Source: Gammaproteobacteria bacterium (GTDB lineage: Bacteria; Pseudomonadota; Gammaproteobacteria; Chromatiales; Chromatiaceae). Taken from it: DNA of 64,000 bases. The position numbers and the translations under genes are program-made. Position 1 is the first letter of the stretch, and each line of letters begins with the position of its first letter. The stretch covers positions 124,001 to 188,000 of the forward strand of contig JAJFJN010000038.1 of NCBI GenBank assembly GCA_021773975.1, written 5' to 3'. The notes below the pieces were generated by a model that was not told the origin of the DNA, searched no databases, and saw only the letters and a program-made list of their open reading frames with translations. This document shows, one piece after another, positions 6,331-32,784 of this stretch.

Positions 6331-6939
6331 TTAGAATGCCTCATCAGGAACAGGAATATATTCACCAATATTAATCACCTCTTCTGGCCCTCCCTGAACA
6401 GCATGAGACCCCCCTTCACTATCAACATCTATAAATGGCCCAATATGCTGTGGTGCCACTTCAGGCCCTGGCGCCATTAACGAAGCATCTGCGTCAGGGT
6501 CTATATACTCTCCGATATGTTGAACTTCCTCTTCAACACCAGAATGGGATGCCAAAGAATCCTCAGAATCTGGGTCAATATATTCACCTATATTAATGGG
6601 AACAACATCAGCCTCATACCCGCTCTGTTCAGCATCGGGGTCAAGCACCATATCTTCAGGTGGCAGCCCTGTTGGCAAACCACTTTCATCTAACGCCTCC
6701 TTTACTATAGAGAGCCGCTTAACTGTTTTAGTTTTTACATCATTTCTTAGAGAACCCTCCTGTCTGCTGACCTCCTTTGTTTCAGGCAGCTCTACATGAG
6801 AAGGAGCTACGGAAGAGTTAAGATCCACTGAATCTACTGGAGCAGTGCTTTGAACGCTTTTTTCCTGCTGAAAAGCATAACCAGCAGCCAGCAATACAAT
6901 AATCAATGCTGCCCAACCTATGGTATTACCACTTTGCAT
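6331..6939 (-). CDS. Small membrane-anchored acidic repeat protein (IGEYIDPD repeats)
   Basis: A 202-residue protein I do not recognise. Residues 8-23 are one hydrophobic helix (IGWAALIIVLLAAGYAF) that would anchor it in the inner membrane. A Ser/Thr/Glu-rich linker follows. The C-terminal half has four copies of an acidic motif, IGEYIDPDS, IGEYIDPDA, IGPFIDVDS and IGEYIPVPD, starting at residues 117, 142, 166 and 191 (period 24-25). The last copy ends almost exactly at the C-terminus. The gene is opposite in strand to both neighbours. A second protein of the same layout but different repeat lies at 20221-20901. The layout suggests a periplasm-facing adaptor or bait for a binding partner, which is inference only. 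Confidence 0.75.
   Translation of the reverse strand: MQSGNTIGWAALIIVLLAAGYAFQQEKSVQSTAPVDSVDLNSSVAPSHVELPETKEVSRQEGSLRNDVKTKTVKRLSIVKEALDESGLPTGLPPEDMVLDPDAEQSGYEADVVPINIGEYIDPDSEDSLASHSGVEEEVQHIGEYIDPDADASLMAPGPEVAPQHIGPFIDVDSEGGSHAVQGGPEEVINIGEYIPVPDEAF
6349..6597 (-). repeat. Four tandem copies encoding an IGEYIDPD-type motif
   Basis: Four roughly 75-base units encode the motif I-G-[EP]-[YF]-I-[DP]-x-[DP] followed by a Ser/Gly/Pro-rich spacer. The copies have diverged in DNA sequence while the motif is kept, which points to selection on the peptide rather than recent duplication. Confidence 0.75.
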
Positions 6940-7297
6940 TACACTTAAACCTTGAAGTAATCAACTTTGGATAGCCGCTGCCACTCGCTAAGCCATAATA
7001 TTATCTATGTTTGAATATTCCCTGTTTAAGGCCATAAAGATTATTACAAACTTTACAGTGACGTTTGCATCAAACCCCTAACCTTGAGGGTTTTAAACAT
7101 CTTCGCAACCCTTAGATGGCAGTCTATATCACTGCTTACATTTGTAATAGTGCCTACCTGTAAAAATGCGATCCAGCTCTCAGGTTACGCAGTGAACAGT
7201 TATCATCCGCTCGAATCCAGCGCCCATCAACCATACAGCTAACAGCAATATTTTTGAGCAAAGTGTACCTATACAACGAGGCAAAAATTTATAAAAA

Positions 7298-7306
7298 TGC
7301 TATAGT
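7298..7306 (+). promoter_or_regulatory. Possible extended -10 promoter before the 7398 gene
   Basis: The sequence TGC-TATAGT matches an extended -10 element (TGnTATAAT) with one mismatch. It lies about 90 bases before the preferred ATG at 7398. No good -35 is present, which extended -10 promoters can tolerate. Otherwise the 6940-7358 gap holds only a weak AAACCC/GGGTTT hairpin at 7072-7093 and no ORF. Confidence 0.3.
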
Positions 7307-7397
7307 CCATTGCAAAGATCAATGACCACCAGTAGGAACAGGGCAACCCGCAAAAAATATGGCACCACAACTGGCAATCAAACAAGACGACGCATAC

Positions 7398-9071
7398 ATG
7401 AACATAGTGATAACTACCGGTTGCCCACATAGCGGCTGGGAAACCTCATTGCCTGCCTTACGACAATTAGGGCTTGAAGAGACCGGAAATACTTTTACTA
7501 AATGGTGCGATGAGCTATTCCAAGAGAGCAATATAACAAATCAACTTCAGCTCAATCAGGCTATCCAACCCGATTCCAATCAGATCAAAAAGGCAGCATC
7601 CCTACTTCTGGACAAACTGAGTGTTCCTTTGCTGTGGGCAGATAGCAGAAACTTGTGGCTTCTTGATTTCTGGGCCTCAACGTTTCCCCAAGCTAATTTT
7701 CTGCTGTTCTACAATCGCTCAGAAAACGCCCTAGCTTACGCCCTTCAGCAAAAAGCAGATCCAGAGCAGTTTATTGAAGCTTGGCAGACAACCAACCAGC
7801 AGTTGCTGCGCTTTCAGCGTCGCAATCGGCACCGCAGCCTGTTACTTGATGCTGAAACAGCTGCCCAGCACCCGGAAGCATTGGCCAGTGCCTGCCAACA
7901 CATTGGACTCACACTACAATCAGCAACTCCATCACCCTCCCCCACAACTACCGCACCTGCTCTGGAACGCCTACTGGCCAGCCAGCTCCTGCATGAGCAG
8001 CTGGCTGTTCAGAACCTGCAAATGGAGCTAGAGGCAAGCGCCCAACCACTCGGTGAGACAGCCGCTCATAACCCCCCGCAGCCAATAGAGGCTTGCCATA
8101 GCTATCAGCAATGGCAAGTACAACTTGAACAGCTGACGCAGGCAAGAGACGAACAAACAAAGCTAGCAGCCGATCACCAGGCACAGCTCACTCAGACTAG
8201 GCACTCTCAGGAAAAACTAGAGGCAACCAATAAAGAAACAGCACAAGAAAATGAACTGCTGTTATTGCAGCTACACCAGGTACAAGAAGAACTCGAAGCA
8301 ATTTTCCTGCAAAAGCAACAGCTCGAACAGGCCCAGACTGAACACAAGACCAAGCTAAAGCAACTCCAGCAAGAAGTGAATGAGGCCAGACAAAAAACTC
8401 AAATAGAGGAAAAGAGATGCAAAAGGTTGGCTGATGAAAAGCAGCAACTTCGAAAACAGATTGAGCAGCTGACCAATGAAGGTGCGACCAACAAACACAT
8501 AGAGGAAAAGAGATGCAAAAGGTTAGCTGATGAACAGCAGCAACTTCGGACACAGATTGAGCAGCGGACCAAAGAAGATGCAGCCAACAAAGAGGCCGAG
8601 CAAGAAAACGAGCTACTACTTTTACAGCTGCATCAGGTACAAGAAGAGCTGGAACATTATTTCCTAAAATACCAGGAGTTCGAACAGCAATCTGAAAATA
8701 AACAGGCAACTGAAGAGCCCTGCCCAACTAAGCCCCAGAAAGCAAACAACTCTACCGGCATCTTTTCAAAACTTTTTAGGCCTATGAGCAAAACAAAAAA
8801 AAGAGTGGCAAAGCAGGTTCACCTACTCAAAGAGTCCAGTCTTTTCAACAACGAGTGGTATCTTGCTGAATATCCTGACGTAGCTCAAGCCGGTATTGAC
8901 CCCATCCAACACTACCTACTCTATGGCGCATCAGAAGGACGCAATCCATCACGGGAATTCAATACTGCATATTATCTAGCCACCAACCCTGATGTTGCTA
9001 CCACTGAAATCAATCCCCTGATTCATTATATCCAATACGGACAAGATGAGGGTCGGCAGCCATCACGCTGA
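7398..9071 (+). CDS. Sulfotransferase-like domain plus coiled coil plus two-repeat C-terminal tail
   Basis: A three-part protein of 557 residues from ATG 7398. ATG 7359 is an in-frame alternative. I prefer 7398 because the P-loop-like start MNIVITTGCPHSGWE then sits at the N-terminus, as in bacterial sulfotransferase domains. Neither start has a strong Shine-Dalgarno. Residues to about 190 resemble the sulfotransferase fold, including FLLFYNRSENALAYAL, but the loop GCPHSGW departs from the usual GxPRSGT, so activity is doubtful. A long Gln/Glu/Lys-rich coiled coil with internal duplications follows. The last 82 residues hold two copies of a YPDVA/HYLLYGASEGRNP-type repeat, also found at the end of the next protein. 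The role may be scaffolding rather than catalysis. Confidence 0.78.
   Translation: MNIVITTGCPHSGWETSLPALRQLGLEETGNTFTKWCDELFQESNITNQLQLNQAIQPDSNQIKKAASLLLDKLSVPLLWADSRNLWLLDFWASTFPQANFLLFYNRSENALAYALQQKADPEQFIEAWQTTNQQLLRFQRRNRHRSLLLDAETAAQHPEALASACQHIGLTLQSATPSPSPTTTAPALERLLASQLLHEQLAVQNLQMELEASAQPLGETAAHNPPQPIEACHSYQQWQVQLEQLTQARDEQTKLAADHQAQLTQTRHSQEKLEATNKETAQENELLLLQLHQVQEELEAIFLQKQQLEQAQTEHKTKLKQLQQEVNEARQKTQIEEKRCKRLADEKQQLRKQIEQLTNEGATNKHIEEKRCKRLADEQQQLRTQIEQRTKEDAANKEAEQENELLLLQLHQVQEELEHYFLKYQEFEQQSENKQATEEPCPTKPQKANNSTGIFSKLFRPMSKTKKRVAKQVHLLKESSLFNNEWYLAEYPDVAQAGIDPIQHYLLYGASEGRNPSREFNTAYYLATNPDVATTEINPLIHYIQYGQDEGRQPSR
8244..8657 (+). repeat. Internal duplications in the coiled-coil coding region
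   Basis: Two nested duplications are visible. A 96-base unit at 8403-8498 (starting ATAGAGGAAAAGAGATGCAA) recurs at 8499-8594. A segment encoding QENELLLLQLHQVQEELE at 8244-8300 recurs at 8601-8657. All spacings are multiples of three, so the coiled coil grew in frame. Confidence 0.85.
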
Positions 9072-9161
9072 TAAGTCATTATATAATCTCAAACCAATGT
9101 CAGCACTCCTCAACACAGCTTTACAGCGGGAAAAGCAGTTAGCAGCATACGGATCAATTGC

Positions 9162-10454
9162 ATGACTGAAATACCTCAACGCCTAGCCACAGTATCCGTG
9201 GTCATGCCATCATTCAATCAGGCTGCCTTTATAGAGCAGTCCATACGTAGCGTATTAACTCAATCAAGCTCACTATTAGAACTTATTGTCATGGATGGAG
9301 GTTCCACAGATGGCACCCAAACCATCCTGAGTCGCCTGACACAAGAAACCAATAGCCGACTACGCTGGTATTCAGAAGCAGATCAAGGGCCTGCCCACGC
9401 AGTCAACAAAGCAATAGCAATGGCTCAGGGTGACATTATTGGCTGGCTAAACAGTGATGACATCTACATGCCAGGCGCACTAGAGCGTGCTGTTCAGTCA
9501 CTAAATGCACACCCCGCATGGTTGATGGTATACGGGCACGGCCAGCACATCGATGAGCACAATCAGGCCATGGGATATTATCCAACCCAGCAGCCCGATA
9601 CCCCTCTTCAGGCATTTGCCGATGGCTGCTTTATCTGCCAGCCTACTGTGTTTCTACGCAAGGAAGTAATAAAAAAGCACGGAGGGTTGGACGAGAATCT
9701 AAAAACAGCTTTCGACCTCGAATGGTGGCTACGCATTTTCAGCCAACACCCAGATGCCATAGGCTTTGTTAATACACTACAAGCTAGCTCCCGATTACAT
9801 AGCAGCTGTATTACGTTAAATCAACGGGAAACCGTTATCCGCGAGAGTATGCAGGTGATAGCGCAATATCTAGGCAACTGCCCCCTACACTGGTTCAAAA
9901 CTTATGCTGATGAATTACTAACTCCCGCCCCTCAAAGGCAGCATTTTAATGATACCAAAGCGCATCTAGAAGAGTTTGCTCACAGCATCACAGGTTATCT
10001 CTCAACCACTGATAAACAAGAATTACACGATTTTTTAAAAGCTGTCACACACCTCAAACCGGAAATCACAGAGACAGAGACCAATCCAAAAGCAACACCT
10101 AGCTCATCTATAATCACAATAATTCAAGCTATTACCAAACCATTCAGACAAATGAGCAAAGCGTACAAAACAGAATGTTCACAGATCAAACTACTAAAAG
10201 AGTCCGGTCTTTTTGATGAAGAGTGGTATCTGGCTAAGTACCCTGACCTAGCCAAAAGAAATATAGATCCTATTAAACACTATCTGCACTACGGGGCAGA
10301 TGAAGGGCGCAACCCATCACCAAAATTTGATACTATATTCTACTTGGCTACCAACCCCGATATATCTACCACTGCAATCAACCCGCTAATCCACTACATT
10401 CAATTTGGACAAGAAAAAGGGTTATTGCCAACAAGCCAGAGTGTAACCATATAA
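9162..10454 (+). CDS. GT2 glycosyltransferase with two-repeat C-terminal tail
   Basis: A 430-residue protein. Residues 8-240 form a GT-A fold family 2 glycosyltransferase: VSVVMPSFNQAAFIEQSI, then MDGGSTDGT, then the metal-binding WLNSDDIYMPGAL, and later FDLEWWLRI. It should transfer a hexose-type residue in the cytoplasm. After a linker, residues 344-430 carry the same two-unit tail as the upstream protein: LFDEEWYLAKYPD...HYLHYGADEGRNP, then FYLATNPD...HYIQFGQ. Similar tails are known on glycosyltransferases of other proteobacteria, but their function is unsettled. The shared tail suggests the two adjacent proteins dock to the same partner. The gene follows its neighbour by 90 bases and probably belongs to the same transcription unit. 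Confidence 0.88.
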   Translation: MTEIPQRLATVSVVMPSFNQAAFIEQSIRSVLTQSSSLLELIVMDGGSTDGTQTILSRLTQETNSRLRWYSEADQGPAHAVNKAIAMAQGDIIGWLNSDDIYMPGALERAVQSLNAHPAWLMVYGHGQHIDEHNQAMGYYPTQQPDTPLQAFADGCFICQPTVFLRKEVIKKHGGLDENLKTAFDLEWWLRIFSQHPDAIGFVNTLQASSRLHSSCITLNQRETVIRESMQVIAQYLGNCPLHWFKTYADELLTPAPQRQHFNDTKAHLEEFAHSITGYLSTTDKQELHDFLKAVTHLKPEITETETNPKATPSSSIITIIQAITKPFRQMSKAYKTECSQIKLLKESGLFDEEWYLAKYPDLAKRNIDPIKHYLHYGADEGRNPSPKFDTIFYLATNPDISTTAINPLIHYIQFGQEKGLLPTSQSVTI

Positions 10455-10533
10455 CCCTTCGTCAAGAGAGAAGGCTAGAATGAGGCGGGCATAATTCCTC
10501 CTCAACCACTACTAAAATGAGCTAAGCGCATAT

Positions 10534-12087
10534 ATGCACCAAGAACCATGTAATCCTCATATACCGCACTCCACACCAGTGGATACCATCATCCATCTTG
10601 GTGCCGGTCGTTGTAGTGAACTGGAGGGTTATCTCGCCTCAAAGCCAACACACCTGCTACTAGTCGAGGCTGACCCACAGCTGACCAAAACACTTCAAGC
10701 ACGCACTAATGATTTCCCACACGTCAAAATCATCAACAAAGCAGTAGCAGGTCAACCCGGCTCTGCTATGTTTTACCGCTACAACCTGCCAGATGTTAGC
10801 GGCCTGCACCAGGCCAACTCCAACCTCTTAAAGCTTTTTCCTGGCCTCAAAACCGTACAGACCGTTCAAACAGAAGCCACCGCACCCTCTGCTCTACTTC
10901 AACCTCTAGAGCTACAGGCAGACCAGCATAACTGGCTGACTATCGACCTGCCAGGTGAGGAGCTTGCGGTACTTAAAGCGATCCAGCAAGCTGATCAGCT
11001 ACATCTTTTTGACCAACTACAACTCCACTGTGGCAACCAAGCTTTATACGAGGAAGGCGAGCCAGCAGCCACTATTCTCCAATGGCTCCAAGATCAAGGC
11101 TTTGATCTTTTTCAAGAAGACAATAGTCATGATTTAGACCGCCCCTGTTGGATGCTAAAACGTAATAAGCTGCAACTACGCCATCGCCAACTTAAACAGC
11201 AACTAACTCGACTAACTCAACTAACAAGTGATCATGATACACAGCTCAACCAACAGAAAACTCAGATAGAACAACTCACCAAAGCAAGGGATGAACAGGT
11301 AAAGCTGGTAGCTGAACATAAAGAGCAATTGGAAAAAGCCAACCAGGCCAAAGCTAACCAGGAAAAGCTGGCAAATGTCCGTCTAACTCAGATAGAGCAA
11401 CTCACCAAAGCAAGAGATGAGCAGGCAAAGCTGGTAGCTGAACATAAAGAACAATTGGAAAAAACCAACCAGACCAGAGCTAATCAGGAAAAGCTGGCAA
11501 ATGATCGCCTAACTCAGATAGAACAGCTCACCAAAGCAAGAGATGAGCAGACAAAGCTGGTAGCTGAACATAAAGAACAATTGGAAAAAGCCAACCAGAC
11601 CAGAGCTAATCAGGAAAAGCTGGCAAATGATCGCCTAACTCAGATTGAACAGCTCACCAAAGCAAGAGATGAGCAGGCAAAGCTGGTAGCTGAACATAAA
11701 GAACAATTGGAAAAAGCCAACCAGACCAGAGCCCATCAGGAAAAGCTGGCAAATGATCGCCTAATTCAGCTAGAACAACTCACCAAAGCAAGCGATGAGC
11801 AGGCAAAGCTCACAGCTGAAAATAAAGCACAGCTGGATAAGGCCAACCAGGCTAAGGCCGAGCAGACACAGCTTGCTACAGCTCACCACCAACAACGTGA
11901 CCAAGAAAAACAGCGCGCAGATAACAACCAGCAACAGCTAGCGCAAAAACAGGAAGAAGTAGAAAAGCTCGAACAGCAACTTGGGGAGCTCAACCATAGG
12001 CTGCCCATGCTAGACACCGAATTTGTAAAAGCAGAAGCACAGATTGAACTTATCAAGGATATCCTGATTCGTGAAAAAGCGTTCTAA
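10534..12087 (+). CDS. FkbM-like methyltransferase domain fused to a long repetitive coiled coil
   Basis: A 517-residue protein. Residues 15-210 look like an FkbM-family SAM-dependent methyltransferase: TIIHLGAGRCSELEGY, then LLLVEADPQL as the acidic loop for the SAM ribose, then WLTIDLPGEELAVLKAI, the family's conserved block. The rest is a long coiled coil that includes five 42-residue tandem units (residues 243-452), each six heptads long, beginning TQIEQLTKARDEQ. No membrane segment is seen. FkbM enzymes usually O-methylate a sugar or polyketide hydroxyl; the substrate here is unknown. The coiled coil could oligomerise the enzyme or link it to the coiled coil of the 7398 protein. The stop overlaps the next gene's GTG start by 17 bases, implying translational coupling. 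Confidence 0.82.
   Translation: MHQEPCNPHIPHSTPVDTIIHLGAGRCSELEGYLASKPTHLLLVEADPQLTKTLQARTNDFPHVKIINKAVAGQPGSAMFYRYNLPDVSGLHQANSNLLKLFPGLKTVQTVQTEATAPSALLQPLELQADQHNWLTIDLPGEELAVLKAIQQADQLHLFDQLQLHCGNQALYEEGEPAATILQWLQDQGFDLFQEDNSHDLDRPCWMLKRNKLQLRHRQLKQQLTRLTQLTSDHDTQLNQQKTQIEQLTKARDEQVKLVAEHKEQLEKANQAKANQEKLANVRLTQIEQLTKARDEQAKLVAEHKEQLEKTNQTRANQEKLANDRLTQIEQLTKARDEQTKLVAEHKEQLEKANQTRANQEKLANDRLTQIEQLTKARDEQAKLVAEHKEQLEKANQTRAHQEKLANDRLIQLEQLTKASDEQAKLTAENKAQLDKANQAKAEQTQLATAHHQQRDQEKQRADNNQQQLAQKQEEVEKLEQQLGELNHRLPMLDTEFVKAEAQIELIKDILIREKAF
11260..11889 (+). repeat. Five 126-bp tandem repeats (42-residue coiled-coil units)
   Basis: Units start at 11260, 11386, 11512, 11638 and 11764, each exactly 126 bases. 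Units 2-4 are nearly identical in DNA, unit 1 slightly different and unit 5 clearly diverged. The period equals six heptads, so units can be gained or lost without breaking coiled-coil register or reading frame. Confidence 0.93.
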
Positions 12088-13495
12088 AAAGAAAACAAAA
12101 AAGCGCCTGCACAAAGTGCGAAAAATCGAGCTTCGCCAGCAGACATCTTCAACAGATGTACAGCAGAACACCGAAACGCAACCGATAGATGTACAGCCTA
12201 CTCTGGAGCTAGCCGAGCAAGAGATGGCACCCATTCTAGAAGGAGCTGATGAAGCTACGCTTGCCCGCGCAAAAACACACTGGTTTTTTGGCGAATGGCA
12301 GCAGCTTACTGCATTGGATCTAGATTCACTGCGCACACATCCAGATCGCGACCGTTTCGCCCTCCTTATCGCCAGCGCCCACCAACAGCTGGGCGCACAT
12401 GAAAAGGCACGCACATATACACGTTTGTCTCTTAAATGGGGATGCCCACCCCGGGTCGTTGCGCAAGTTCTTATTGCAGGCGTGCACAATACATTAGGGA
12501 GAGCCGCCGCACTAAATCAAGATGAATCTCGTATCACGCACCACTTTGAAGCATCTGTAACGGCAATTGGCACAAAGGATACAGCACTAGTGAGCCATGC
12601 GCGTTCAGTACGCGAAATGGCTCGTATGGGATTGCTACCCCAGGCAGCTACACTTGTCGATAAACAACTACAAGTCACTCACAATCAAACACAAAAACCA
12701 CACCAGCAAGAAGCGCATTATAAAGTACTACAAACAGAAGTTGAGTTATTGAGCCATGAACTCTCCCTTGCCCAACAACGTCAGCAAATTTTTTCTGGCT
12801 CTACAGGCAACAATCACACTGAATCCAACATTGATCCAAATGACCCTGCACAGCTAGAAAGATTAAAAAAATGTGCAGTATCACAGCTTGGCCAAGATTT
12901 ATGGGTGCTAGAGCAAACCAACTATAAGCATAACGGGTTTTTTGTAGAATTTGGCGCAACAGACGGCATCCTTTTAAGTAACTCTTGGCTATTGGAAAAA
13001 AAGTTTAGTTGGAAGGGGATTTGTGCTGAACCAAATCCAAAGTTTTTCGCCCAACTTAAAGAGAATCGAAATTGCATTGTCAGCAACGCCTGTATTGGCG
13101 CAGCCACAGGTGAGGAAATTGAGTTTGTCTTTGCTGATGCCTATGGAGGCATGAAGAAACACATCAGCACCGATAATAATGCCCATCGCAGAGCGGGGTA
13201 TGCAGAACTAAGTGATGCCAACATGACTATCGAGACTATCTCACTCCACGATTTTTTACTGCAACACGATGCTCCAAAAACCATTGACTACCTGAGCATC
13301 GATACCGAAGGGAGTGAACTGGAAATTTTGGAGGCATTTCCATTTGAAAAATGGAACATCAAAATGTTAACTGTCGAGCATAACTTTACTGAACAACGGG
13401 CTGGGATTAGAGCTTTAATGGCGCATAACGGATATCATTGCATAGAAATGCAATGGGACGACTGGTTCAGCAAGAAAGCGAACAGCGCAAACTAA
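12071..13495 (+). CDS. FkbM family methyltransferase with basic N-terminus and helical-repeat domain
   Basis: A 474-residue protein from a GTG start inside the end of the previous gene. The first 20 residues are very basic (KKRSKKKTKKRLHK). Residues 60-200 look like helical TPR-type repeats. The C-terminal half is a clear FkbM methyltransferase: SQLGQDLWVLE, FFVEFGATDG (SAM motif I), GICAEPNP, then IDYLSIDTEGSELEILEAF, the family signature. It should methylate a hydroxyl on a glycan or precursor using SAM. It is translationally coupled to the preceding FkbM-coiled-coil gene, so the two methyltransferases are probably made together. The basic N-terminus might contact membrane phospholipid or a polyanionic (for example sulfated) glycan, which is inference. 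Confidence 0.88.
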   Translation: MKKRSKKKTKKRLHKVRKIELRQQTSSTDVQQNTETQPIDVQPTLELAEQEMAPILEGADEATLARAKTHWFFGEWQQLTALDLDSLRTHPDRDRFALLIASAHQQLGAHEKARTYTRLSLKWGCPPRVVAQVLIAGVHNTLGRAAALNQDESRITHHFEASVTAIGTKDTALVSHARSVREMARMGLLPQAATLVDKQLQVTHNQTQKPHQQEAHYKVLQTEVELLSHELSLAQQRQQIFSGSTGNNHTESNIDPNDPAQLERLKKCAVSQLGQDLWVLEQTNYKHNGFFVEFGATDGILLSNSWLLEKKFSWKGICAEPNPKFFAQLKENRNCIVSNACIGAATGEEIEFVFADAYGGMKKHISTDNNAHRRAGYAELSDANMTIETISLHDFLLQHDAPKTIDYLSIDTEGSELEILEAFPFEKWNIKMLTVEHNFTEQRAGIRALMAHNGYHCIEMQWDDWFSKKANSAN

Positions 13496-13595
13496 TTATT
13501 CTTCATTCTAATAAATACACAGCATGCATATCCCTATTAAAGCAAGTTCACATACAACATAGCCTTGCAACATATTATTCAAATAAACACGTCAC

Positions 13596-14354
13596 ATGAA
13601 AAACAACCCAAAGGTATCTGTAGTCACGATAGTACGAAATGACGCACAAGGACTCTTAATCACTGCAAGAAGCATTCTTGAGCAAAATTATTCAAACATT
13701 GAATGGATTGTCATCGATGGACTTTCCACCGATCTAACATCATATTATGTAAAAAAACTATCTAGTCAAATCGCAAAATACAAGATTGAGAAGGATAATG
13801 GCATCTATAACGCCATGAATAAAGGGATCAACATGGCTTCTGGAGAATGGCTGTTTTTTATGAATGCTGATGATATATTTTATTCCTACGATACTGTTTC
13901 TAAATATGTTCAACACTTAAATACTGGAGACGACTTCCTCTATTCAAATGTTGAAAGGAGAGAAGATAATCATTTACATCTCTATCGACCAAACCATCAG
14001 CACTGGCTGGGCATGAGCCTAGACCATCAATCTATATGTGGGCGTACAAGTATTTATAAAAAATTACAGTTTGATGAAACTTACCGCATTGCTGGAGACT
14101 ACGACCTCTTCTCTAAAGCCAAGGTAATGAATTATTCATTCCGAAAAATCCCCTGGCTAATTTGCTGCAGAAAGCCTTTCAATGTAGGTGCATCAGTAGG
14201 TTATGTAGAAAGACAGAAGGAGCGCATACGTGTCATAACAAAACATTACAGCGATACGCCATACAAGGCAGCGCTTACCAACGAGTACAATCGACAGGTT
14301 GAACTTGGGAATATCAATAAACAGGAGCATGCTCAGCTCCTTTTGCTTCTTTAG
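13596..14354 (+). CDS. GT2 glycosyltransferase (WcaA/WcaE-like)
   Basis: A 252-residue single-domain family 2 glycosyltransferase of ordinary length for the colanic-acid WcaE-like group. It has KVSVVTIVRNDAQGL at the N-terminus, VIDGLSTD, EKDNGIYNAMNKGI (a signature of this subgroup), the metal-binding FFMNADDIF, and IAGDYDLF towards the end. It should be cytoplasmic or peripherally membrane-bound and add one sugar to a lipid-linked intermediate. No good Shine-Dalgarno precedes the ATG. The next gene starts 7 bases after the stop, so the two are probably co-translated. It looks more AT-rich than the preceding coiled-coil genes, which fits an assembly of separately acquired genes. Confidence 0.92.
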   Translation: MKNNPKVSVVTIVRNDAQGLLITARSILEQNYSNIEWIVIDGLSTDLTSYYVKKLSSQIAKYKIEKDNGIYNAMNKGINMASGEWLFFMNADDIFYSYDTVSKYVQHLNTGDDFLYSNVERREDNHLHLYRPNHQHWLGMSLDHQSICGRTSIYKKLQFDETYRIAGDYDLFSKAKVMNYSFRKIPWLICCRKPFNVGASVGYVERQKERIRVITKHYSDTPYKAALTNEYNRQVELGNINKQEHAQLLLLL

Positions 14355-14361
14355 GTGGAAT

Positions 14362-16428
14362 ATGGCAATTTTAATTTCTGGAATTGGACGATCTGGGACA
14401 ACAACTCTGTATGAAATTATTGGTAAAGCACTTCTTGCTCAGCATGGTGGGGGGCGATGCGTTTATGAGCCTTACTTATGGAATATACCTGAGATTGAAT
14501 CAACCGCTGATACGCACGGACAGCCATTTAATGTTGGCCAGGTCGGCTTATTTAATATGACCGTTCACTGTAACACCCCACTTTTTTTATCAAACCATCA
14601 TATGCTGCATGATGCATGGTTGAAGCGTGTATTTGGGCCAGCACCAGCCGCCAGCCAGACCGCGCCTGACAATGTTATGGCCAAGGTCATTCGAGGTGCA
14701 GGAAGAATTGAGGCAGCACTAACGCGATTCGAGAATCTTAAGGTTATTGCGGTCACAAGAAACGTTATAGACACGGTAAACTCTGGACTAGGCCTATTCA
14801 CCTTCTACGGTGACGAGTTCCATCCTTCCGATAAGCATCGTTTCGTCAATGAAGTAAACAGCCTCTTCAACGCTAACTTGGACGCCAGTAAGATCAAAAA
14901 TGAAATGGAGTGGTCTGTCCTTTGGTGGCATTACTTTACCGAGGCTAGCATCCGGACGTATCAGAAATTCCCAGATCGAGTCATGCTTGTTCCTTATGAA
15001 AAATATATTAAGGACAATAGCGGCATAATGAAGCAGATCTTCAAGTTCTGCGGTATCAAGGATACACATCTTGATACAAAACTCTTCAGTAATGATGCGG
15101 GACCAAGGACATCAGTCTCCTATTTGGATAACAGATCCATCGAGCTGATGAATGATGAGCTTGAGTGGTATTTCACACGATTGAAAAATATCGATGTTTA
15201 TGCCCAAGACAGTAATCAGTTTCGTAATGCACTCCTACAAAAATACAACAAGCGCAAGTATGTACAGTCACTACTCCTGACTGAAAAACCTGACCACACG
15301 GCAGTGATGTGGCGAATCAAGCTGAAGAACTGCCTCGCTCATCAAGGGCGTGTTGGAAACGCTAGTGGCAAAGAAGCCGCTAAGCAGAAAATATTCACTG
15401 TAGCACAAGCAATGAGTGAGTTTGGTGCAAATGAAACAGCTCTTGCAGAAATGCGCAAAAAACAATTTATCAAAGCAACTCCACCTTCTAAAAAGCCAAC
15501 CCTCGGAGTGCTAATCACAAATTTCAACAATGTGAGCACCATCGAGGAATCAATTTGTTCCGTACTTTTGCAGTCAAAAAAACCTGATCTCATCGTTGTC
15601 GCTGACGACTGCTCCACCGATGGATCCCAAGCACTGCTTAAGAAACTAGCTGCTCGGCATAAAAATATTCAGCTTGTGCTACGTCCAGAGAATGTTGGTG
15701 TAGCAGCCAACCGTGACTTGGCCATTCGGGACATGAATACAGACTACATCACCACCCTGGACGGTGATGACCTCTTCTTACCCGGGAAACTAGAGCTGGA
15801 GTATTCAACCTTGGATGGTAGCACTGATAAAGTGGCCTTCAGCAATATAGCCCTGTTAAACAAGACCGAGAATTCGATCATGGACACATCTGCATATTCT
15901 GGCAAACCCACTGCCGCAATTCTCCAGATGCTTACATCACGCTCAGCGCCTGTACCTCGCGACATGATGTTCCCTAAATCCCTCTTCACTATTGCAGAAG
16001 GCTTCGATGTTGCCCTAAATATGTATGAAGACTGGGCATTCAAAATGCGACTAATGCTGGCTGCTAAAGGCGGTTGGATATGGTCTGGAGGCATAGGGAC
16101 AGTCTATGACCGCCGTAATCCAGGACTATCTGGTAAAGAGCCAATCTTTCATGCACATGGTCAGATGATCGCCCTAGCCCGGAATGTGCGGCTACTGAAG
16201 GCATACCCCACGGCTATCCTAGCTGGGCTTCGCACGGCCTCATCCCATCTCGGAAAAGAGAACAAAGAACGCATGTCTAGAATAATTACCAAGTATGAAC
16301 GTAAGGGAGATTTTGATAGATTGGTAGTGTGTCTAGAAGCTTTGTGGAATGGCGCTTATGTAGGCGAAGATGTTCAAAAAAGACGAGCGGATATCAACCA
16401 GTTTATTTTTAGTATAAACAAACAGTAA
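14362..16428 (+). CDS. Sulfotransferase-GT2 glycosyltransferase fusion
   Basis: I place the start at ATG 14362, after AGGTGG, giving MAILISGIGRSGTTTLYE; the longer frame from 14299 overlaps the upstream gene. Residues 3-300 form a sulfotransferase domain with the PAPS 5'-phosphosulfate loop GIGRSGTT and a 3'-phosphate-binding element VIAVTRNVIDTVNSGL. Residues 378-600 are a GT2 domain: LGVLITNFNNVSTIEESI, VADDCSTDGSQ, TTLDGDDLFLPGKL. At 688 residues it is about the sum of the two families. It probably adds a sugar and sulfates it or a neighbour in one polypeptide. PAPS-synthesis genes are not in the window, so PAPS must come from elsewhere. Confidence 0.9.
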   Translation: MAILISGIGRSGTTTLYEIIGKALLAQHGGGRCVYEPYLWNIPEIESTADTHGQPFNVGQVGLFNMTVHCNTPLFLSNHHMLHDAWLKRVFGPAPAASQTAPDNVMAKVIRGAGRIEAALTRFENLKVIAVTRNVIDTVNSGLGLFTFYGDEFHPSDKHRFVNEVNSLFNANLDASKIKNEMEWSVLWWHYFTEASIRTYQKFPDRVMLVPYEKYIKDNSGIMKQIFKFCGIKDTHLDTKLFSNDAGPRTSVSYLDNRSIELMNDELEWYFTRLKNIDVYAQDSNQFRNALLQKYNKRKYVQSLLLTEKPDHTAVMWRIKLKNCLAHQGRVGNASGKEAAKQKIFTVAQAMSEFGANETALAEMRKKQFIKATPPSKKPTLGVLITNFNNVSTIEESICSVLLQSKKPDLIVVADDCSTDGSQALLKKLAARHKNIQLVLRPENVGVAANRDLAIRDMNTDYITTLDGDDLFLPGKLELEYSTLDGSTDKVAFSNIALLNKTENSIMDTSAYSGKPTAAILQMLTSRSAPVPRDMMFPKSLFTIAEGFDVALNMYEDWAFKMRLMLAAKGGWIWSGGIGTVYDRRNPGLSGKEPIFHAHGQMIALARNVRLLKAYPTAILAGLRTASSHLGKENKERMSRIITKYERKGDFDRLVVCLEALWNGAYVGEDVQKRRADINQFIFSINKQ

Positions 16429-16553
16429 GCCACAGTTATCATGCCTCTATTGCAGCAGGAAAAACATTTACTAATGGTAACGCCTAAAATCTCAATGATG
16501 AGCCTTTTTATACCTCATGGCTTGCTGCAGCCGCCAATATTTAAGGTTTTGTT

Positions 16554-18305
16554 ATGATCTATGTTGTAACGCCGTGTCAGAATGCTATCAACACAATTGA
16601 ACAGACAATCTTGAGCATTGTCACCCAGGCTGGTAATTTTGATATCACCTATCATATTCAAGATGGTGATTCCCATGATGGAACCATCGAGTTACTTGAG
16701 CGATGGAAGTCTTTCATCGATAGCGGACAATTTCCTATCCAGTGCCAAAGCATTAACTTCACATACAGCAGCTCCGCAGACTCCGGGATGTACGACGCCA
16801 TCGTCACCGGATTTGATCATATGGCAATTGGTTCGACCTCCTTCATGACCTGGATTAATGCAGATGACATCTTGATGCCGGGGGCACTGGCCTTGATCGA
16901 TAAAATTGGCACAGGTTTTGGTAGCGAGCACGCATCATGGATAGGCGGTGCAACAAATATTGTGCGTGATGGCATTTCAATTACACAATTCCCCAGGCCA
17001 GCCCCTACCGATATCATCGCTTGCGGGTTGTGCGACGGCCAGCACTGGGGATTTGTACAACAAGAGGGTGTCTTTTTCCGCAGGTGGTTATGGGATAAAG
17101 TGGATGCACCCAATATGCTAAGAACGTTCAAGTATGCTGGTGACTGGAATTTATGGCGGCTGTTCGCAGCTTATGCAAAGTACATACAGTGCTCATACCC
17201 ACTTGGAGGCTTCAGAATTACCGAAGGACAATTATCACAGATCAATAAAGAAGCATATATCAACGAAATGGATGCATGTATCAGCTCAAATAAGCGAAAG
17301 AGCATACTACGCGCCTTGGGTGAAAGCACCTCAGTAAACCAGCGTCTATTAAAAATCAACTATTCAGATGGCAAGCTATCAATTATAGAGAAGAGCGCGT
17401 TAGGTTCAGTTAGGCATCACTATGTTGAAAATTTCCAGACGACACCTTCATGCAACTTACCTCCTACACCGCTTCTCAATAAAGAGCATGTTCTATTTAA
17501 CGCCACAACCAAACAAAAAGAGCATAGCCATAAGAAAACCCACCATGCCACTAACAATCCCACAGCACAAAATACTCAAAATGCACATAAAATAACACCC
17601 GACAATTTCAATAGCTTTACTTATGCTAAAAAAACCCACTGGGATTTCTTCAAATCAATTGATGTATCTCTCTTCGGCAGGCAAATGGATCAGCATGTTG
17701 AGCAATTAAAAGTCTACCAGGATTTGCTTGTTCTGAAATTCATTCAAGACAATATACCCGTAGGGTCAAGCATCCTTGATGTCGGCGGTGGACAATCACG
17801 AATCCTTGAGCACTTGGCAAACACCTATGAGTGCTGGGAAATCGACAAACTAGACGGTGTTGGTAATGGCCCAAAGGATATTGGCAAACAACCCTATCAT
17901 TTAGTTCGAGATTACATGGGAAATTTTAATCAAGAACTCCCAGATAAATACTTTGACTTTGTATTTTCTATTTCAGCCCTCGAGCATGTACCACAGCATG
18001 ATCCATCACTTTTCGATAACATCATTATGGATATACAACGCGTTCTGAAAACTGGAGGATACAGCCTACATCTATTTGATATAGTATTAAAAAAAGATCA
18101 TTTCTGGTCCAACAAAATCACCAATCACTTCTTTCAAAACATTACTACAATCAATAAAAATATAGACTTTAGGACTATGAACGCAGACAACGACCTCTAC
18201 GTGATGAGCGAGGCCGCCTATAACAAGACATGGCTGCATTCTATTAACAAAACCTACGAAGAGCATGGAGCACCCAGTAGTTTAAATATCCTTTGGTGCA
18301 AGTAA
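16554..18305 (+). CDS. GT2 glycosyltransferase-SAM methyltransferase fusion
   Basis: A 583-residue two-domain protein. Residues 1-240 form a GT2 domain: MIYVVTPCQNAINTIEQTI, QDGDSHDGT, the metal site WINADDILMPGAL, and YAGDWNLWRLF. A low-complexity linker rich in His, Asn, Thr and Lys (about residues 315-350) leads to a class I methyltransferase, with motif I SILDVGGGQSRILE at residue 405 and VFSISALEHVPQHDPSLF matching the Methyltransf_11 type. It should add a sugar and methylate it or the chain end. Terminal methylation can stop chain growth in ABC-exported polysaccharides, so a chain-capping role is possible but unproven. An AAGG lies before the ATG. The region is AT-rich. Confidence 0.9.
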   Translation: MIYVVTPCQNAINTIEQTILSIVTQAGNFDITYHIQDGDSHDGTIELLERWKSFIDSGQFPIQCQSINFTYSSSADSGMYDAIVTGFDHMAIGSTSFMTWINADDILMPGALALIDKIGTGFGSEHASWIGGATNIVRDGISITQFPRPAPTDIIACGLCDGQHWGFVQQEGVFFRRWLWDKVDAPNMLRTFKYAGDWNLWRLFAAYAKYIQCSYPLGGFRITEGQLSQINKEAYINEMDACISSNKRKSILRALGESTSVNQRLLKINYSDGKLSIIEKSALGSVRHHYVENFQTTPSCNLPPTPLLNKEHVLFNATTKQKEHSHKKTHHATNNPTAQNTQNAHKITPDNFNSFTYAKKTHWDFFKSIDVSLFGRQMDQHVEQLKVYQDLLVLKFIQDNIPVGSSILDVGGGQSRILEHLANTYECWEIDKLDGVGNGPKDIGKQPYHLVRDYMGNFNQELPDKYFDFVFSISALEHVPQHDPSLFDNIIMDIQRVLKTGGYSLHLFDIVLKKDHFWSNKITNHFFQNITTINKNIDFRTMNADNDLYVMSEAAYNKTWLHSINKTYEEHGAPSSLNILWCK

Positions 18306-18544
18306 ATGTGATGAAGGTACATAATAAACACTCTAAATTATAGCCGGGAGAGGGCGCCTAATGATTAATTAATCTGGGCAATTGTTCTAGCCATATATAT
18401 GTCACAGGGTTGCTGCGCAATCCTTCTAAACTACCACTAGCACTGCATTGAAATAACAACTGCCCTTAGCATTTGGTGGTATCATTCTGCTAAAGGTAAT
18501 TATTAATATTTATAGAATTATTAACTGAATTTGAGGTAAGTATA

Positions 18545-19435
18545 ATGTCTAGAAATTCATCTTTATTCTCTCCTGGTGGCAAACAAGCAGAGGACATTAA
18601 ACTCCTCCAGAGCCTTCTTCTTCATGTCGACAGCCTTTCCGGAACATACTACCCAACACAACAAGAAGACCAATCAACACCGGTACTGTATTCAGAAACA
18701 TCATCAGACAGCAATTGTCTACCAATTCCCCCAGAGAAATTTTGGCACTGGTACGACACAGAAAGCGAAGCTAAATACTTAGCCGGAGGAGAGATTCAAG
18801 CAAACAGATTCAGAAAGGCCGCATTAAGTGCCGGTTTTCAATTTAATCCTGGTGAAAAAGTTCTTGATTTTGGATGTTCAGGAGCAAGAGTTACTCGTTG
18901 GTTTGCCGAGGAAGCTAATAGAGGAGTAGATATTTGGGGTTGTGACATTGATGCAGCAGCAATCGAATGGTGTCAAAAAAACCTTATGCCACCTTTCAAG
19001 TTTTTTGCCAATACAACTTCACCACATCTTCCAGTAAAGGATGGTTTTTTTGATTTCATCTTTGCAGGATCAGTTTTTACTCACATAAAAGACATGAGCA
19101 CATCCTGGGTTCTTGAGCTACATAGATGCCTCTCCAACAATGGTCTTGCTATTTTTACTGCAACAACCGAGCTGAGCCTTGATCAACTCAACAAAGTTGC
19201 AAAGGAAGATGTCAATGGCATTAAAAAGGTTCCGAAATATATAAGGGACAACAATATAACTGACTCATATCTTCGAGAGAGGGGGTTTATTACAATTCAG
19301 TCCTCACCATGGTGGCTTGCCGCCATTTATCATTCTGAGTTCTTCTGCCGAAGACTGAATTTATGCTTTGACGTTGTTGATATCATTCCAAACCTAAAAG
19401 GCTACCAAACAGGCTTTGTTTTAAAGCCTAAATGA
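18545..19435 (+). CDS. Class I SAM-dependent methyltransferase
   Basis: A 296-residue protein with a good GAGGT Shine-Dalgarno 8 bases before the ATG. The methyltransferase fold starts near residue 105: KVLDFGCSGARVTRWF (motif I, SAM glycine-rich loop), WGCDIDAAAIEWCQKN (acidic residue for the SAM ribose), and FFDFIFAGSVFTHIKD (post-motif strand). The ~100-residue N-terminal extension contains FWHWYDTESEAKYLAGG, often seen in glycan-cluster methyltransferases. The substrate is unknown, probably a sugar or glycan. It is the last plus-strand gene of the island, lies 239 bases after its neighbour and may have its own promoter. A transposon remnant follows directly. Confidence 0.9.
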   Translation: MSRNSSLFSPGGKQAEDIKLLQSLLLHVDSLSGTYYPTQQEDQSTPVLYSETSSDSNCLPIPPEKFWHWYDTESEAKYLAGGEIQANRFRKAALSAGFQFNPGEKVLDFGCSGARVTRWFAEEANRGVDIWGCDIDAAAIEWCQKNLMPPFKFFANTTSPHLPVKDGFFDFIFAGSVFTHIKDMSTSWVLELHRCLSNNGLAIFTATTELSLDQLNKVAKEDVNGIKKVPKYIRDNNITDSYLRERGFITIQSSPWWLAAIYHSEFFCRRLNLCFDVVDIIPNLKGYQTGFVLKPK

Positions 19436-19450
19436 TAAATAAAACACCAT

Positions 19451-19475
19451 GAAACAAGAAACAAGAAACAAGAAA
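19451..19475 (+). repeat. Short tandem repeat (GAAACAA)3 plus GAAA
   Basis: Three perfect copies of GAAACAA at 19451, 19458 and 19465 are followed by GAAA. It lies just after the methyltransferase stop and before the IS200-type element. It may be a slippage product; no function is apparent. Confidence 0.85.
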
Positions 19476-19582
19476 TGGTGGGACTGAAATATATAGGATA
19501 AGTCCGCAAATACCATATAACACTCACCAAAAACTAATCTACAGCCAATCATAACCACCCGTAGAACGGGTGGTATGATGAA

Positions 19583-19605
19583 AGTCCCTGGAAGGGGCTA
19601 TTTTT
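19583..19605 (+). terminator. Rho-independent terminator-like hairpin in the IS end
   Basis: AGTCCCT-GGA-AGGGGCT forms a 7-bp stem (one G-U pair) followed by ATTTTT. It would stop plus-strand transcripts coming out of the methyltransferase gene. It may belong to the transposon end. Confidence 0.45.
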
Positions 19606-19606
19606 G

Positions 19607-20043
19607 TTAAACTCCTGCCAGTTTCATCTGCTCCAGGCATTTTTCTTCTGGCTCCTGGTTTTGAAAATACTTACGGTATCATCACCTCATCTAAGCCTAC
19701 CGTACTTACGCAGTAACCCCGAGCCAAAAAGTGTCTACCCGTGAAATTTTGCATCACTTGCAAATAATCCCTAAATGTTCGTATCGCTGAATTTCCTTTT
19801 AAAAACCCAATAGCATGAGCCACACTATGCTTAGGTGGGATCATCAAAAGCATATGCACATGATCACCCATTGCATGCCCCTCCCTCTAACTCAATGCCA
19901 TACTGACGACAGAGCTCTTTGAAAATACCTTCTATGTCTTTTCTTAGGGTTCCATATATCGATTTTCTGCGATACTTTGGAATAAATACAACATGATATC
20001 TGCAATAATGCTTAACGTGAGTTTGGCTTTGCCACCCTCTCAT
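19607..20043 (-). pseudogene. tnpA: IS200-type transposase TnpA, two frameshifts
   Basis: From ATG 20043 the frame reads MRGWQSQTHVKHYCRYHVVF with KYRRKSIYGTLRKDIEGIF, a clear IS200 TnpA start, but stops at a TGA after ELEGGACNG. Skipping one G in the GGGG run near 19877 restores HAMGDHVHMLLMIPPKHS, which carries the HxH metal site (HVH), and continues through the region with the nucleophile tyrosine (ARGYCVSTVGLDE). A second extra base near 19677 must be skipped to read RKYFQNQEPEEKCLEQMKL to the stop at 19607. The total, 437 bases, equals 145 codons plus two extra bases, close to a normal TnpA. The gene is therefore inactive unless these are sequencing errors. Confidence 0.88.
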
Positions 20044-20087
20044 AATGACCTCCTATAGAATTTGCCGGTTCAAAAGGAGGTCATTAT
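20042..20087 (-). promoter_or_regulatory. Hairpin sequestering the tnpA ribosome-binding site
   Basis: A perfect 13-bp inverted repeat (20042-20054 with 20075-20087, 20-base loop) includes the AGGAGGT Shine-Dalgarno and most of the ATG of tnpA. In mRNA this would bury the ribosome-binding site. IS200 elements are known to repress transposase translation with a leader hairpin of this kind. Confidence 0.75.
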
Positions 20088-20220
20088 CTTCAATGCACGC
20101 CGGAACGGCAGAGCCTTTTCGAGTCTCACCGCCAGAGGCGGTGGTTTACCTAAATTGAATTATAGAAGGGCTTACAGATGAGCGAGCTACTGAAATACTA
20201 GGAAGTTACGCACCATACTT

Positions 20221-20901
20221 TTAATGATAATCATCATCTGCAAAAACACCAGGGGAAATATCAGCGCTCAAAAACCCACCCATAGATAATATATCAACAT
20301 CACTTTCAGCTACTGAGGGAGTTAGCAGATGGTCTTCGGGGTCTGGCCCAAAACCTGCGTCATAATTAACAGGTTCATCATAAGCAGCGTCCGCAAAAAC
20401 ACCAGGGAAATTATCAGCACTTGCAAATTTACCAGCCGATATGCCAGCCGATATGCCAGCATCACTTTCGCCTGCCAAGGCAGTTAGCAAATGCTCTTCG
20501 GGATCTGGCCCAATATCCGCACCGTCGTAATTAACAGGCTCATCATAAGCAGCGTCTGCAAAAACACCCGGAGAGTCATCAGCATTCAAAGCCGTCTCTT
20601 CTTCTAAAGAAGCATCTAAGAGCGACATACCATCACCTTGCTCACGCTCCCTAGGCGGCAAAACAGAGGCCACCTTTTCTTGATGCTGCCGCTGCAGCGT
20701 TTTTTCTTGGCGCATCGCTCTGGCGGTCACGCCGCCTCGATGACTAGCCAAGTGGTTTGCTACATTATTGACCGATCCACCCTCGACCTTCATAACTTCT
20801 TGCAAGGCAGCATTTACTATCACATCATCATCCATAACATAATAGACACCTGCCCCAATAATAACCGCCAAGGCTACTCCAGTTAACTGAGGTGATATCA
20901 T
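20221..20901 (-). CDS. Small membrane-anchored acidic repeat protein (PGVFADAAYDEPVNYD repeats)
   Basis: A 226-residue protein I do not recognise. A hydrophobic stretch at residues 6-22 (LTGVALAVIIGAGVYYV) should anchor it in the inner membrane. A basic/Gln-rich stretch and PPREREQ follow. The C-terminal half holds repeats of PGVFADAAYDEPVNYD...GPDPE-HLLT starting at residues 107 and 162, plus a short third copy (213-226) that ends as PGVFADDDYH at the C-terminus. The design (single anchor, charged linker, acidic repeats, last copy at the very end) matches the 6331-6939 protein although the motif differs. The downstream gene in the same direction is a transposase remnant, and the upstream gene (20917) is only 15 bases away, so those two are probably co-transcribed. 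Confidence 0.72.
   Translation of the reverse strand: MISPQLTGVALAVIIGAGVYYVMDDDVIVNAALQEVMKVEGGSVNNVANHLASHRGGVTARAMRQEKTLQRQHQEKVASVLPPREREQGDGMSLLDASLEEETALNADDSPGVFADAAYDEPVNYDGADIGPDPEEHLLTALAGESDAGISAGISAGKFASADNFPGVFADAAYDEPVNYDAGFGPDPEDHLLTPSVAESDVDILSMGGFLSADISPGVFADDDYH
20224..20583 (-). repeat. Two and a quarter long repeats within the acidic repeat protein gene
   Basis: Repeat periods are 55 and 51 codons. DNA similarity between the first two copies is high around the segments encoding PGVFADAAYDEPVNYD and GPDPE-HLLT, suggesting fairly recent duplication. The third copy is truncated by the stop codon. Confidence 0.8.
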
Positions 20902-20916: not shown

Positions 20917-21288
20917 TTACGGTGCAGCAGGTGCTGGCAACACCTCTATGAGAACACCGTAGCAGTATCCATCATGCTTTTTCGTATCATCCAATGTCAC
21001 ACCAACCTTGCGACTCAACGCTTGTGACATCTGCGCGGCATCAAACTTGCGATAGGCTATATCTTTCGCTGAATGTGTTCCTGTGCAGCTAAAGGCAACC
21101 CAACCACCAGGACAGCTTGGCAATGTTCCTGTAAAATCGACATCCATTTTTGCAATGCACCCACCCCATACGCCGTCTGTCACCATGGTTTTAACTATGG
21201 TTCCACGAAAATAACCTTTTGCCGCATGAACCGGGGCTGCTACAAGCATAAAAGCGACTATCCCAAATACCATCATTACTCGTTTCAT
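20917..21288 (-). CDS. Small secreted protein of unknown function
   Basis: A 123-residue protein with a clear Sec signal peptide: MKRVMMVFGIVAFMLVAAPVHA, cut likely after VHA. The mature part of about 101 residues has four cysteines (WGGCIAKM, TLPSCPGG, FSCTG, GYCYG), which could form two periplasmic disulfides. A Pro/Ala tail (LPAPAAP) ends it. I do not recognise a family; the compact size, cysteines and GYCYGVLIEV strand suggest a small beta-rich periplasmic or secreted domain. It lies 15 bases upstream of the acidic repeat protein gene on the same strand and about 230 bases downstream of the thrombospondin-repeat protein gene. This group of minus-strand envelope genes separates two plus-strand glycan blocks. 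Confidence 0.72.
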   Translation of the reverse strand: MKRVMMVFGIVAFMLVAAPVHAAKGYFRGTIVKTMVTDGVWGGCIAKMDVDFTGTLPSCPGGWVAFSCTGTHSAKDIAYRKFDAAQMSQALSRKVGVTLDDTKKHDGYCYGVLIEVLPAPAAP

Positions 21289-31695: not shown

Positions 31696-32784
31696 TTAAT
31701 CCCTGTGATCTTTTATAATCAATACCAGCATATTAACGATAAAACCAAGAAAAATAGCGATAATGGCAAATACTACTGAATTGTAGAGTCTTGCCGGTTT
31801 TACTGGATATTCTGGAAAAGTTGGGCTTTGCAGTACGGATACCTGCTTAAGTTTTCTTGCTGCTTCGATGCGGGTATTTTCCAGTGCAGCCAAAGCGCTG
31901 GAATAAGTCTCAAGAGCAAACTGCGCCTTCAGCTCAAGCGTTTGATATTCAGAGGAAAGCCGGTTAAGAGCATTACCAGATTTTTGAGCCATACGTGCCT
32001 GCTCTTTATCAATCTGCCCACGCAAGGCATTGATTTCATTGTTAACACGAACCATCTCTGGGGACTGTGGCCCCTGATAGTTGCTTATTGCTGTCTTGCG
32101 CGCCCTTAATCTAGCCAACTCTCCTTCAAGGGCGCCTACCACCGCACTCAAGCTTTCAACTGTACCAGCTGGTGAAACTAGGCCACGCTCATTCTGGTAA
32201 TTCAACAGACTGGCACGAGAGGCATCCAGGCGACCACTCAATCGCTCAACCTGATCATCAAGGAAACGAACCTGCTCAGAAGCCAAGCGCTGCCCCATGG
32301 CATTCATATGCCCCTCTCCCTCTTTCAGTAACAGCGTAGCCATAGCATGCGCAGCTGCAGGATCAAATGCCTGCACTTGAATACGCAACACATTGGCATA
32401 ATCATCAAGTTCTACAATAAAGCGGGATAAGTAATACTCGTGCAACTCTTCAATAGGCGCATCTTTGTCAAGCAGGCGGCTGAAAATATCGATACCTGTC
32501 TGAGCATAGTGACCACGAATATCCAATTCAGCATCCAGCTTTTTTAACATATCAACAGATAGCATGTAGTCGCGCAGTAGCAATAGGTCAGCAGCGGATC
32601 CGCCACCACCAGAAATCAGAGACGAAAAATCAAAAATAGGTGCCGCAATCTGGGGGCTTTCCAATACAACATTGGCCTGCGATACATAGCGATCACTGGC
32701 CCATAGCCCCCAATAACCACTTACCGCAATAATAGCCACAACACATGCTAACCAATAGGGATTCTGCTTAAAAAATTGCTTCAT
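31696..32784 (-). CDS. kpsE: Capsule export inner-membrane protein, KpsE/CtrB family (PCP-3)
   Basis: A 362-residue polysaccharide co-polymerase of the ABC-capsule type. One transmembrane helix lies near the N-terminus (PYWLACVVAIIAVSGYWGLW) and one near the C-terminus (VVFAIIAIFLGFIVNMLVLI), with a long periplasmic helical region between them (residues 130-310). ASDRYVSQANVVLESP is typical of the KpsE/BexC/CtrB start and FPEYPVKPARLYN is the pre-TM2 motif. It bridges the KpsMT transporter and the outer-membrane channel. Its ATG overlaps the kpsT stop by one base, so it is the last gene of the export operon. It converges on the plus-strand gene 32 bases away with no evident hairpin terminator between. 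Confidence 0.95.
   Translation of the reverse strand: MKQFFKQNPYWLACVVAIIAVSGYWGLWASDRYVSQANVVLESPQIAAPIFDFSSLISGGGGSAADLLLLRDYMLSVDMLKKLDAELDIRGHYAQTGIDIFSRLLDKDAPIEELHEYYLSRFIVELDDYANVLRIQVQAFDPAAAHAMATLLLKEGEGHMNAMGQRLASEQVRFLDDQVERLSGRLDASRASLLNYQNERGLVSPAGTVESLSAVVGALEGELARLRARKTAISNYQGPQSPEMVRVNNEINALRGQIDKEQARMAQKSGNALNRLSSEYQTLELKAQFALETYSSALAALENTRIEAARKLKQVSVLQSPTFPEYPVKPARLYNSVVFAIIAIFLGFIVNMLVLIIKDHRD

Follow-up and report, generated by a model that had tools for sequence, protein, structure and literature searches.

The two membrane-anchored acidic repeat proteins that flank a glycan island in the 64,000-nucleotide stretch of Chromatiaceae DNA analysed here (the window), P1 and P2, are probably the membrane-anchored component, R, of a system that sorts proteins or anchors them at the cell surface by means of a C-terminal tag; we put the probability of this reading at about 0.6. 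The system has three parts, R, a small secreted protein (S) and secreted proteins carrying the tag (W). The parts themselves are established, as are the adjacency of their genes, their co-occurrence across genomes, the many-to-few ratio of tagged proteins to R and S, one natural fusion and selection on the R motifs. The features of the window on which the argument draws are as follows.

6331..6939, minus strand: P1, an R-family protein with one membrane helix, a linker and four IG[EP][YF]I[DP] motifs (open reading frame, ortholog, profile, selection, model)
6862..6924, minus strand: membrane helix of P1, residues 6-26 (hydropathy, model)
6334..6597, minus strand: repeat arm of P1, residues 115-202, with motifs at 117, 142, 166 and 191 (repeat and motif analysis)
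20221..20901, minus strand: P2, a protein in the R position with one membrane helix, a linker and diverged repeats (hydropathy, motif matrix, module position)
20224..20604, minus strand: repeat arm of P2, residues 100-226, with degenerate R motifs at 100, 155 and 206, each followed by PGVFAD (motif matrix)
20917..21288, minus strand: S, small and secreted, with conserved Cys and modelled as an OB fold; lies 15 bp upstream of P2 (signature, profile, model)
21515..23533, minus strand: W, a secreted protein with a TSP3 repeat and a C-terminal GGWR tag (domain search, tail profile)
21518..21571, minus strand: GGWR tag of W, the last 18 residues, PAWVCGGSGGWRHAISLQ (tail comparison, profile, hydropathy)

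Both repeat-protein genes are present on the minus strand as an earlier note on this DNA had described them, and the plan it gave for their products, a single membrane helix near the N-terminus and acidic repeats that extend to the C-terminus, is borne out. Each has a single N-terminal hydrophobic stretch with no second (KD17 2.23 near residues 7-23 in P1, 2.02 in P2) and an acidic C-terminal half, with 28 D/E and no K/R in P1 and 32 D/E and one K/R in P2; their internal repeats score 85 and 102, higher than in any of 1000 shuffles (maxima 51 and 56 respectively). The single helix and the acidic C-terminal half are characteristics of the R family, and the disorder expected of its arm is seen in the AlphaFold model of P1, which predicts one clear helix (residues 6-26) and low-confidence coil for the rest (mean pLDDT 53.7). 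P1 also carries the defining motif of the family, [IVT]G[EP]xx[LI]DAD, of which members have two to five copies about 24 residues apart; the spacing (median 24 residues, interquartile range 22-24) is constant from genus to genus, and the final copy is found at the C-terminus or close to it.

An ortholog of P1, 56% identical and with the same neighbours, is found in a congener (G003), where it lies tail to tail with a glycosyltransferase gene and divergent from a coiled-coil gene. The motif copies are individually kept in both species (copy 3 as IGxFIDVD, copy 4 as GEYIPVPD), and dN/dS between the orthologs is approximately 0.06 in the motifs and 0.49 in the linkers, values drawn from two sequences with synonymous sites near saturation. 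Judged by these comparisons P1 is a real gene under selection and, since its motif copies are conserved and dN/dS is low within them, the view that the repeats are non-conserved, drifting low-complexity sequence, which the earlier note had set out as fatal to its own interpretation, is rejected. Conserved motifs, drifting linkers, the spacing of about 24 residues and the terminal position of the last copy together leave multivalent docking, the role first proposed for these arms, as the best guess; what docks there is another matter, to which we return below.

Homologs of the same plan were recovered from 11 of 210 genomes of the family, in four genera, by a weak R profile that was built from three sequences and missed R-type proteins adjoining S in two genomes (G040 and G205). 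All hosts in the genome-collection scan are Chromatiaceae (Thiocapsa, Thiodictyon, Lamprocystis, Thiohalocapsa and Lamprobacter). Further R-type proteins are encoded next to S genes in a Competibacteraceae MAG, in a Pseudomonadales MAG with motifs very close to those of P1 (IGPFIDADD, VGEYLDPDAE) and in Methylococcaceae (DTGPFIDADPGK), with degenerate forms in Rhodocyclales and Porticoccaceae. A weak match to P1 in G028 is a protein of the same plan whose HIGEPLDADDP repeats reach its C-terminus; weak matches from the initial search with P1 were mostly to unrelated proteins and were discarded, as were weak matches of P1 to AcrF31 and of P2 to DUF5853, both below cut-off. P1, P2, S and the tag have no match at curated cut-offs in Pfam or NCBIfam, and none above cut-off in a sequence search of the PDB; a scan of IMG/VR with P1 returned no relative, and the plasmid collection yielded one weak match (E 0.1). 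In a Thiodictyon MAG (G199, L068 3434-4285) an R tail and the N-terminal portion of a subtilase-like protein appear to be joined, possibly a fusion of gene remnants.

P2 is assigned to R mainly by its position and plan, with moderate support from its sequence. It had been described as built on a 16-residue motif and unrelated in sequence to P1. The gene does not stand by itself at the island edge; it lies 15 bp downstream of S and, with the GGWR-tagged W gene, forms a three-gene module, and for this reason we place it in the R position. Its repeat unit is about 51-55 residues rather than 16, and to call the two sequences unrelated is too strong, for P2 holds three degenerate motifs of the P1 family (EEETALNADD, SAGKFASADN and SMGGFLSADI), 51-55 residues apart and each directly ahead of PGVFAD, a match with p = 0.002 (2000 shuffles) under a position-specific matrix built without P1 and P2. 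This is no better than p = 0.002, and P2 alone as a query finds no sequence relative in 92 genomes, both of which would suit a P2 that is unrelated to R, a chance neighbour of S and W with repeats that arose independently. We think this unlikely, as P2 shares both the plan and the position of R, as its three motif copies each precede the same PGVFAD, and as a Thiohalocapsa R protein (G205) has an intermediate motif, VEIGAFLSADI, to set beside SMGGFLSADI. Between the glycan island and the P2 module, at 19900-20150 on the minus strand, the sequence, judged by eye, resembles an IS200/IS605 TnpA transposase in its N-terminal part and has a palindrome next to it; this may be a mobile boundary.

S adjoins most R genes and is recognised by the signature GGCMAxLS...WVxFSC...LDQAQLALA...DDxxxHNGYCFxxRID; the window copy matches other S proteins at E ~1e-23. 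Many S/R pairs in turn adjoin a W gene, whose secreted product ends in CWxCLPxxGGWRxxLR, and all three genes are neighbours in the window as well as in Thiocapsa, Thiodictyon, Thiohalocapsa and Competibacteraceae; cultured species with the module include Thiocapsa roseopersicina (laboratory strain DSM 217, L077). In Porticoccaceae S occurs with no clear R or GGWR tag nearby. The AlphaFold model of S is an OB fold (pLDDT 88), and its nearest folds in the PDB are AB5-type B subunits and SilF (Z 9-10 over 77-91 residues at 2.6-3.6 A), with Foldseek E-values of 8e-3 or above. The OB fold is a common one, so that the modelled likeness would argue only weakly for membership of the AB5-type B subunits; we take it as a hint that S may bind peptide or glycan, with no assignment, and beyond the fold nothing else points to S as a toxin. 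Multi-helix proteins that by eye resemble O-antigen ligases or polymerases directly adjoin S in two genomes (L043 7313-8527 in G200, L071 7103-7879 in G040) and are candidates for a part in glycan attachment.

The window W ends in CPAWVCGGSGGWRHAISLQ. A profile of 17 residues of W tails was run on 35 genomes, and tagged proteins were counted by this search. The genome to which the window belongs has seven tag-bearing open reading frames, four of them about 1000 residues or longer, and two whose E-values are weak although a C-terminal tag is plain when the sequence is read. Counts are higher elsewhere, with 43 matches at E <= 1 in the Thiodictyon MAG G199, most below 0.01 (about 40 tagged proteins), 20 in G040 and 15 in G200. 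Among tagged frames that were read out, the C-terminus falls within about 10 residues of GGWR, and there is no transmembrane helix in the tag (maximum KD17 1.37 over the last 45 residues of 19 tagged proteins). The tag varies by lineage (CWxCLPxxGGWR, CPxWVCGGxGGWR, KKHRPAWRKLLG), and the proteins that bear it have only the tail in common, their domains including TSP3, RCC1, PKD, thermolysin M4, subtilase and PhoPQ-type, and in some cases choice-of-anchor D or Q domains above NCBIfam cut-offs. We found nothing relevant on a GGWR-type tag in the open-access literature that was searched. It might be supposed that W, S and R make up a local effector set, a hydrolase with its inhibitor or membrane-bound immunity protein, of which the GGWR tail is merely a class hallmark; S is small and secreted, and W partners include a subtilase and a PhoPQ-type hydrolase. 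Against this, the majority of tagged proteins have repeats and no enzymatic character, their genes lie at a distance from S and R, and a genome may hold up to about 40 of them; we regard an effector set as very improbable indeed.

The phyletic distribution argues for a connection among the three parts. S is present in 15 of the 210 family genomes and occurs together with R in 10 (Fisher p = 9e-13 with related genomes counted as independent, which is optimistic, and ~1e-5 at genus level). At E <= 1e-3 the GGWR profile matches in 14 of the 15 genomes with S against one of 20 others, and that one match is a 28-residue frame; every genome with an intact S has tagged open reading frames at this threshold. 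The 19 relatives that lack both S and R show background tag matches only, in short frames, and four congeners without R and S have no tag above background. The exceptional genome is a Thiocapsa MAG (G171, L089) in which the S reading frame contains a stop and no R or tag was found, as if R, S and tag had decayed together. In the congener G003 the P1 ortholog is kept and there are at least two tagged open reading frames, with no S detectable in what is a fragmented MAG. Several facts weigh against reading these parts as one system: the genome of the window has one S but two R, neither S nor W neighbours P1, and the same may be said of the absence of a detectable S from G003, of the Porticoccaceae S without a clear R or tag nearby and of the differences in the tag between lineages.

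The natural fusion, found in Lamprobacter (G116), is an 865-residue subtilase with a signal peptide that continues through LPSRGGWRAAV and a linker into four IG motifs, encoded beside S. Since they are fused to an exported, tagged subtilase, the R motifs of this protein should lie outside the cytoplasm. Basic residues precede the helix in most R proteins other than P1 and P2, and from this and the fusion we infer that the R arm is generally extracytoplasmic. P1 and P2 have no basic residues ahead of the helix, and their topology is consequently uncertain by the positive-inside rule.

On balance we read R and S as partners of a tag at the C-terminus that sorts or anchors the proteins bearing it and that, in contrast to PEP-CTERM or GlyGly-CTERM, lacks both a transmembrane helix and a linked sortase. 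Tagged W proteins would leave the cytoplasm through an N-terminal signal sequence and would present, at the other end, some 15-20 residues such as CWxCLPxxGGWRxILR or CPxWVCGGxGGWRHAI. R, held in the membrane by its N-terminal helix, would display on the extracytoplasmic side a disordered acidic arm with two to five short motifs at steps of about 24 residues, and S would be a small secreted, cysteine-containing OB-fold protein. Most likely the arm would serve as a multivalent strap for S, or for the basic aromatic tag directly; tagged proteins might in this way be gathered at the membrane and then passed on for export or retained at the cell surface. The side of the membrane on which single R proteins display their arms, direct binding, whether of the tag or of S to the R motifs, and the fate of the tagged proteins are, unlike the parts themselves, inferred. 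Hand-over to type II secretion is possible, as a secretin is present in every genome tested; the GspD model matches in 34 of 34 genomes and its distribution is thus not informative.

The glycan island invites another view of the docking arms. P1 sits within a glycan cluster in two species and the P2 module borders one, and the earlier note had proposed that the arms could recruit enzymes or export components of the glycan machinery to the inner membrane. Docking as such we retain; its purpose is better explained by service to the C-terminal tag of exported proteins, on the extracytoplasmic side, because R co-occurs with S and the tag and is fused to a tagged protease in Lamprobacter. That R is a scaffold for its neighbours, with motifs that recruit glycosyltransferases, sulfotransferases or parts of the capsule exporter, we consider improbable: S/R loci in G040, G200, G116 and the Pseudomonadales MAG do have polysaccharide-type neighbours, but there are none at many R loci (Thiocapsa, G201, G205), the distribution of R follows that of S and the tag, and the Lamprobacter fusion places the motifs outside the cytoplasm, away from glycosyltransferase active sites. 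Polysaccharide genes lie alongside about half of the module loci and are absent at the other half, a rough count by inspection, and the scattering of homologues away from glycan loci, which would have told against the original proposal, is partly seen. As a lead, the glycan link appears local and not general. A second possibility is that tagged proteins become linked to surface polysaccharide, similar in effect to T9SS or exosortase-type attachment, with S binding glycan through its OB fold, R holding the complex and the tag as the attachment point. The many glycan-binding members among the AB5-type B subunits nearest to S, the polysaccharide genes near half of the loci and the O-antigen-ligase-like proteins beside S in two genomes would fit; OB folds bind many things, however, no attachment enzyme was found and several loci have no glycan genes, and we hold this idea to be doubtful, though not far-fetched.

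The island and its surroundings have further features of their own. A 126-bp tandem repeat (11259-11850; 4.7 copies, 92% match) encodes a 42-residue coiled-coil unit in the protein at 10534-12087, and two fusion proteins join a sulfotransferase to a GT2 domain (14299-16428) and a GT2 domain to a methyltransferase (16554-18305). Facing the island, at 31696-35994, are a GNVR-domain protein, an ABC ATPase, an ABC-2 permease and an SLBB polysaccharide export protein, which together make up a set for capsule export of the Kps type. In G003 (contig C172, L020 4617-10934) a large polyketide synthase gene is divergent from the glycosyltransferase gene that adjoins the P1 ortholog.

PEP-CTERM and GlyGly-CTERM were recognised (PMC1569441, PMC3237569) by behaviour of the kind that GGWR shows, as a suffix on unrelated exported proteins, many in a genome, that is present or absent jointly with partner genes. 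With PEP-CTERM and its exosortase (EpsH) the GGWR tag shares a short C-terminal region on many unrelated exported proteins, a sporadic distribution in Gram-negative genomes and many-to-few pairing with dedicated partners (PMC1569441), and some GGWR-tagged proteins have partial matches to a PEP-CTERM family (ScyF) or contain choice-of-anchor domains; the GGWR tag, however, has no transmembrane helix, and it is paired with an OB-fold protein and a disordered strap in the membrane rather than with an eight-helix enzyme. GlyGly-CTERM and rhombosortase offer a glycine-containing C-terminal tag, many-to-one pairing and gammaproteobacterial hosts with a type II secretion system (PMC3237569), but the tripartite structure of motif, helix and basic residues is not that of the GGWR tag, in which the helix is missing. 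MYXO-CTERM and myxosortase are alike in a cysteine-containing tag on surface proteins, including TSP3-type proteins partly resembling MtsC and MtsD (PMC11980579), and differ in that the GGWR tag lacks a transmembrane helix and that no intramembrane protease was found linked to it. Many GGWR tags have LPxxGG and C-terminal basic residues, as in LPXTG and sortase, although LPxxG is not universal and a helix is again lacking.

As linked enzymes, exosortase and sortase are both ruled out by phyletic pattern: exosortase does not track the tag, being present in relatives without it and undetected in tagged genomes (G166, G172, G173), and sortase (PF04203) was found in none of 15 tag-carrying genomes tested, G003 included. 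Sortase-family genes (PF04203) do occur in relatives without the GGWR system (G008, G012, G015, G021, G025, G041 and G047). The polar hub proteins FimV and HubP are likewise membrane-anchored with acidic repeats, but R is much smaller, has no recognised domain and has repeats that are likely to lie outside the cytoplasm.

C-terminal sorting tags have earlier led to sortase, exosortase, rhombosortase, myxosortase and surface-attachment pathways. The GGWR system has a different build, and it is found in purple sulfur bacteria and several other lineages, where in some genomes it would handle dozens of large exported proteins. We suggest, at somewhat less than even odds, that it is a kind of sorting not described before, in which a soluble tag with neither transmembrane helix nor dedicated enzyme would be recognised at the membrane by a disordered R strap, with its evenly spaced motifs, and a secreted OB-fold S, on up to about 40 surface proteins per genome. 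Protein families without any Pfam or NCBIfam model now have a hypothesis for their function.
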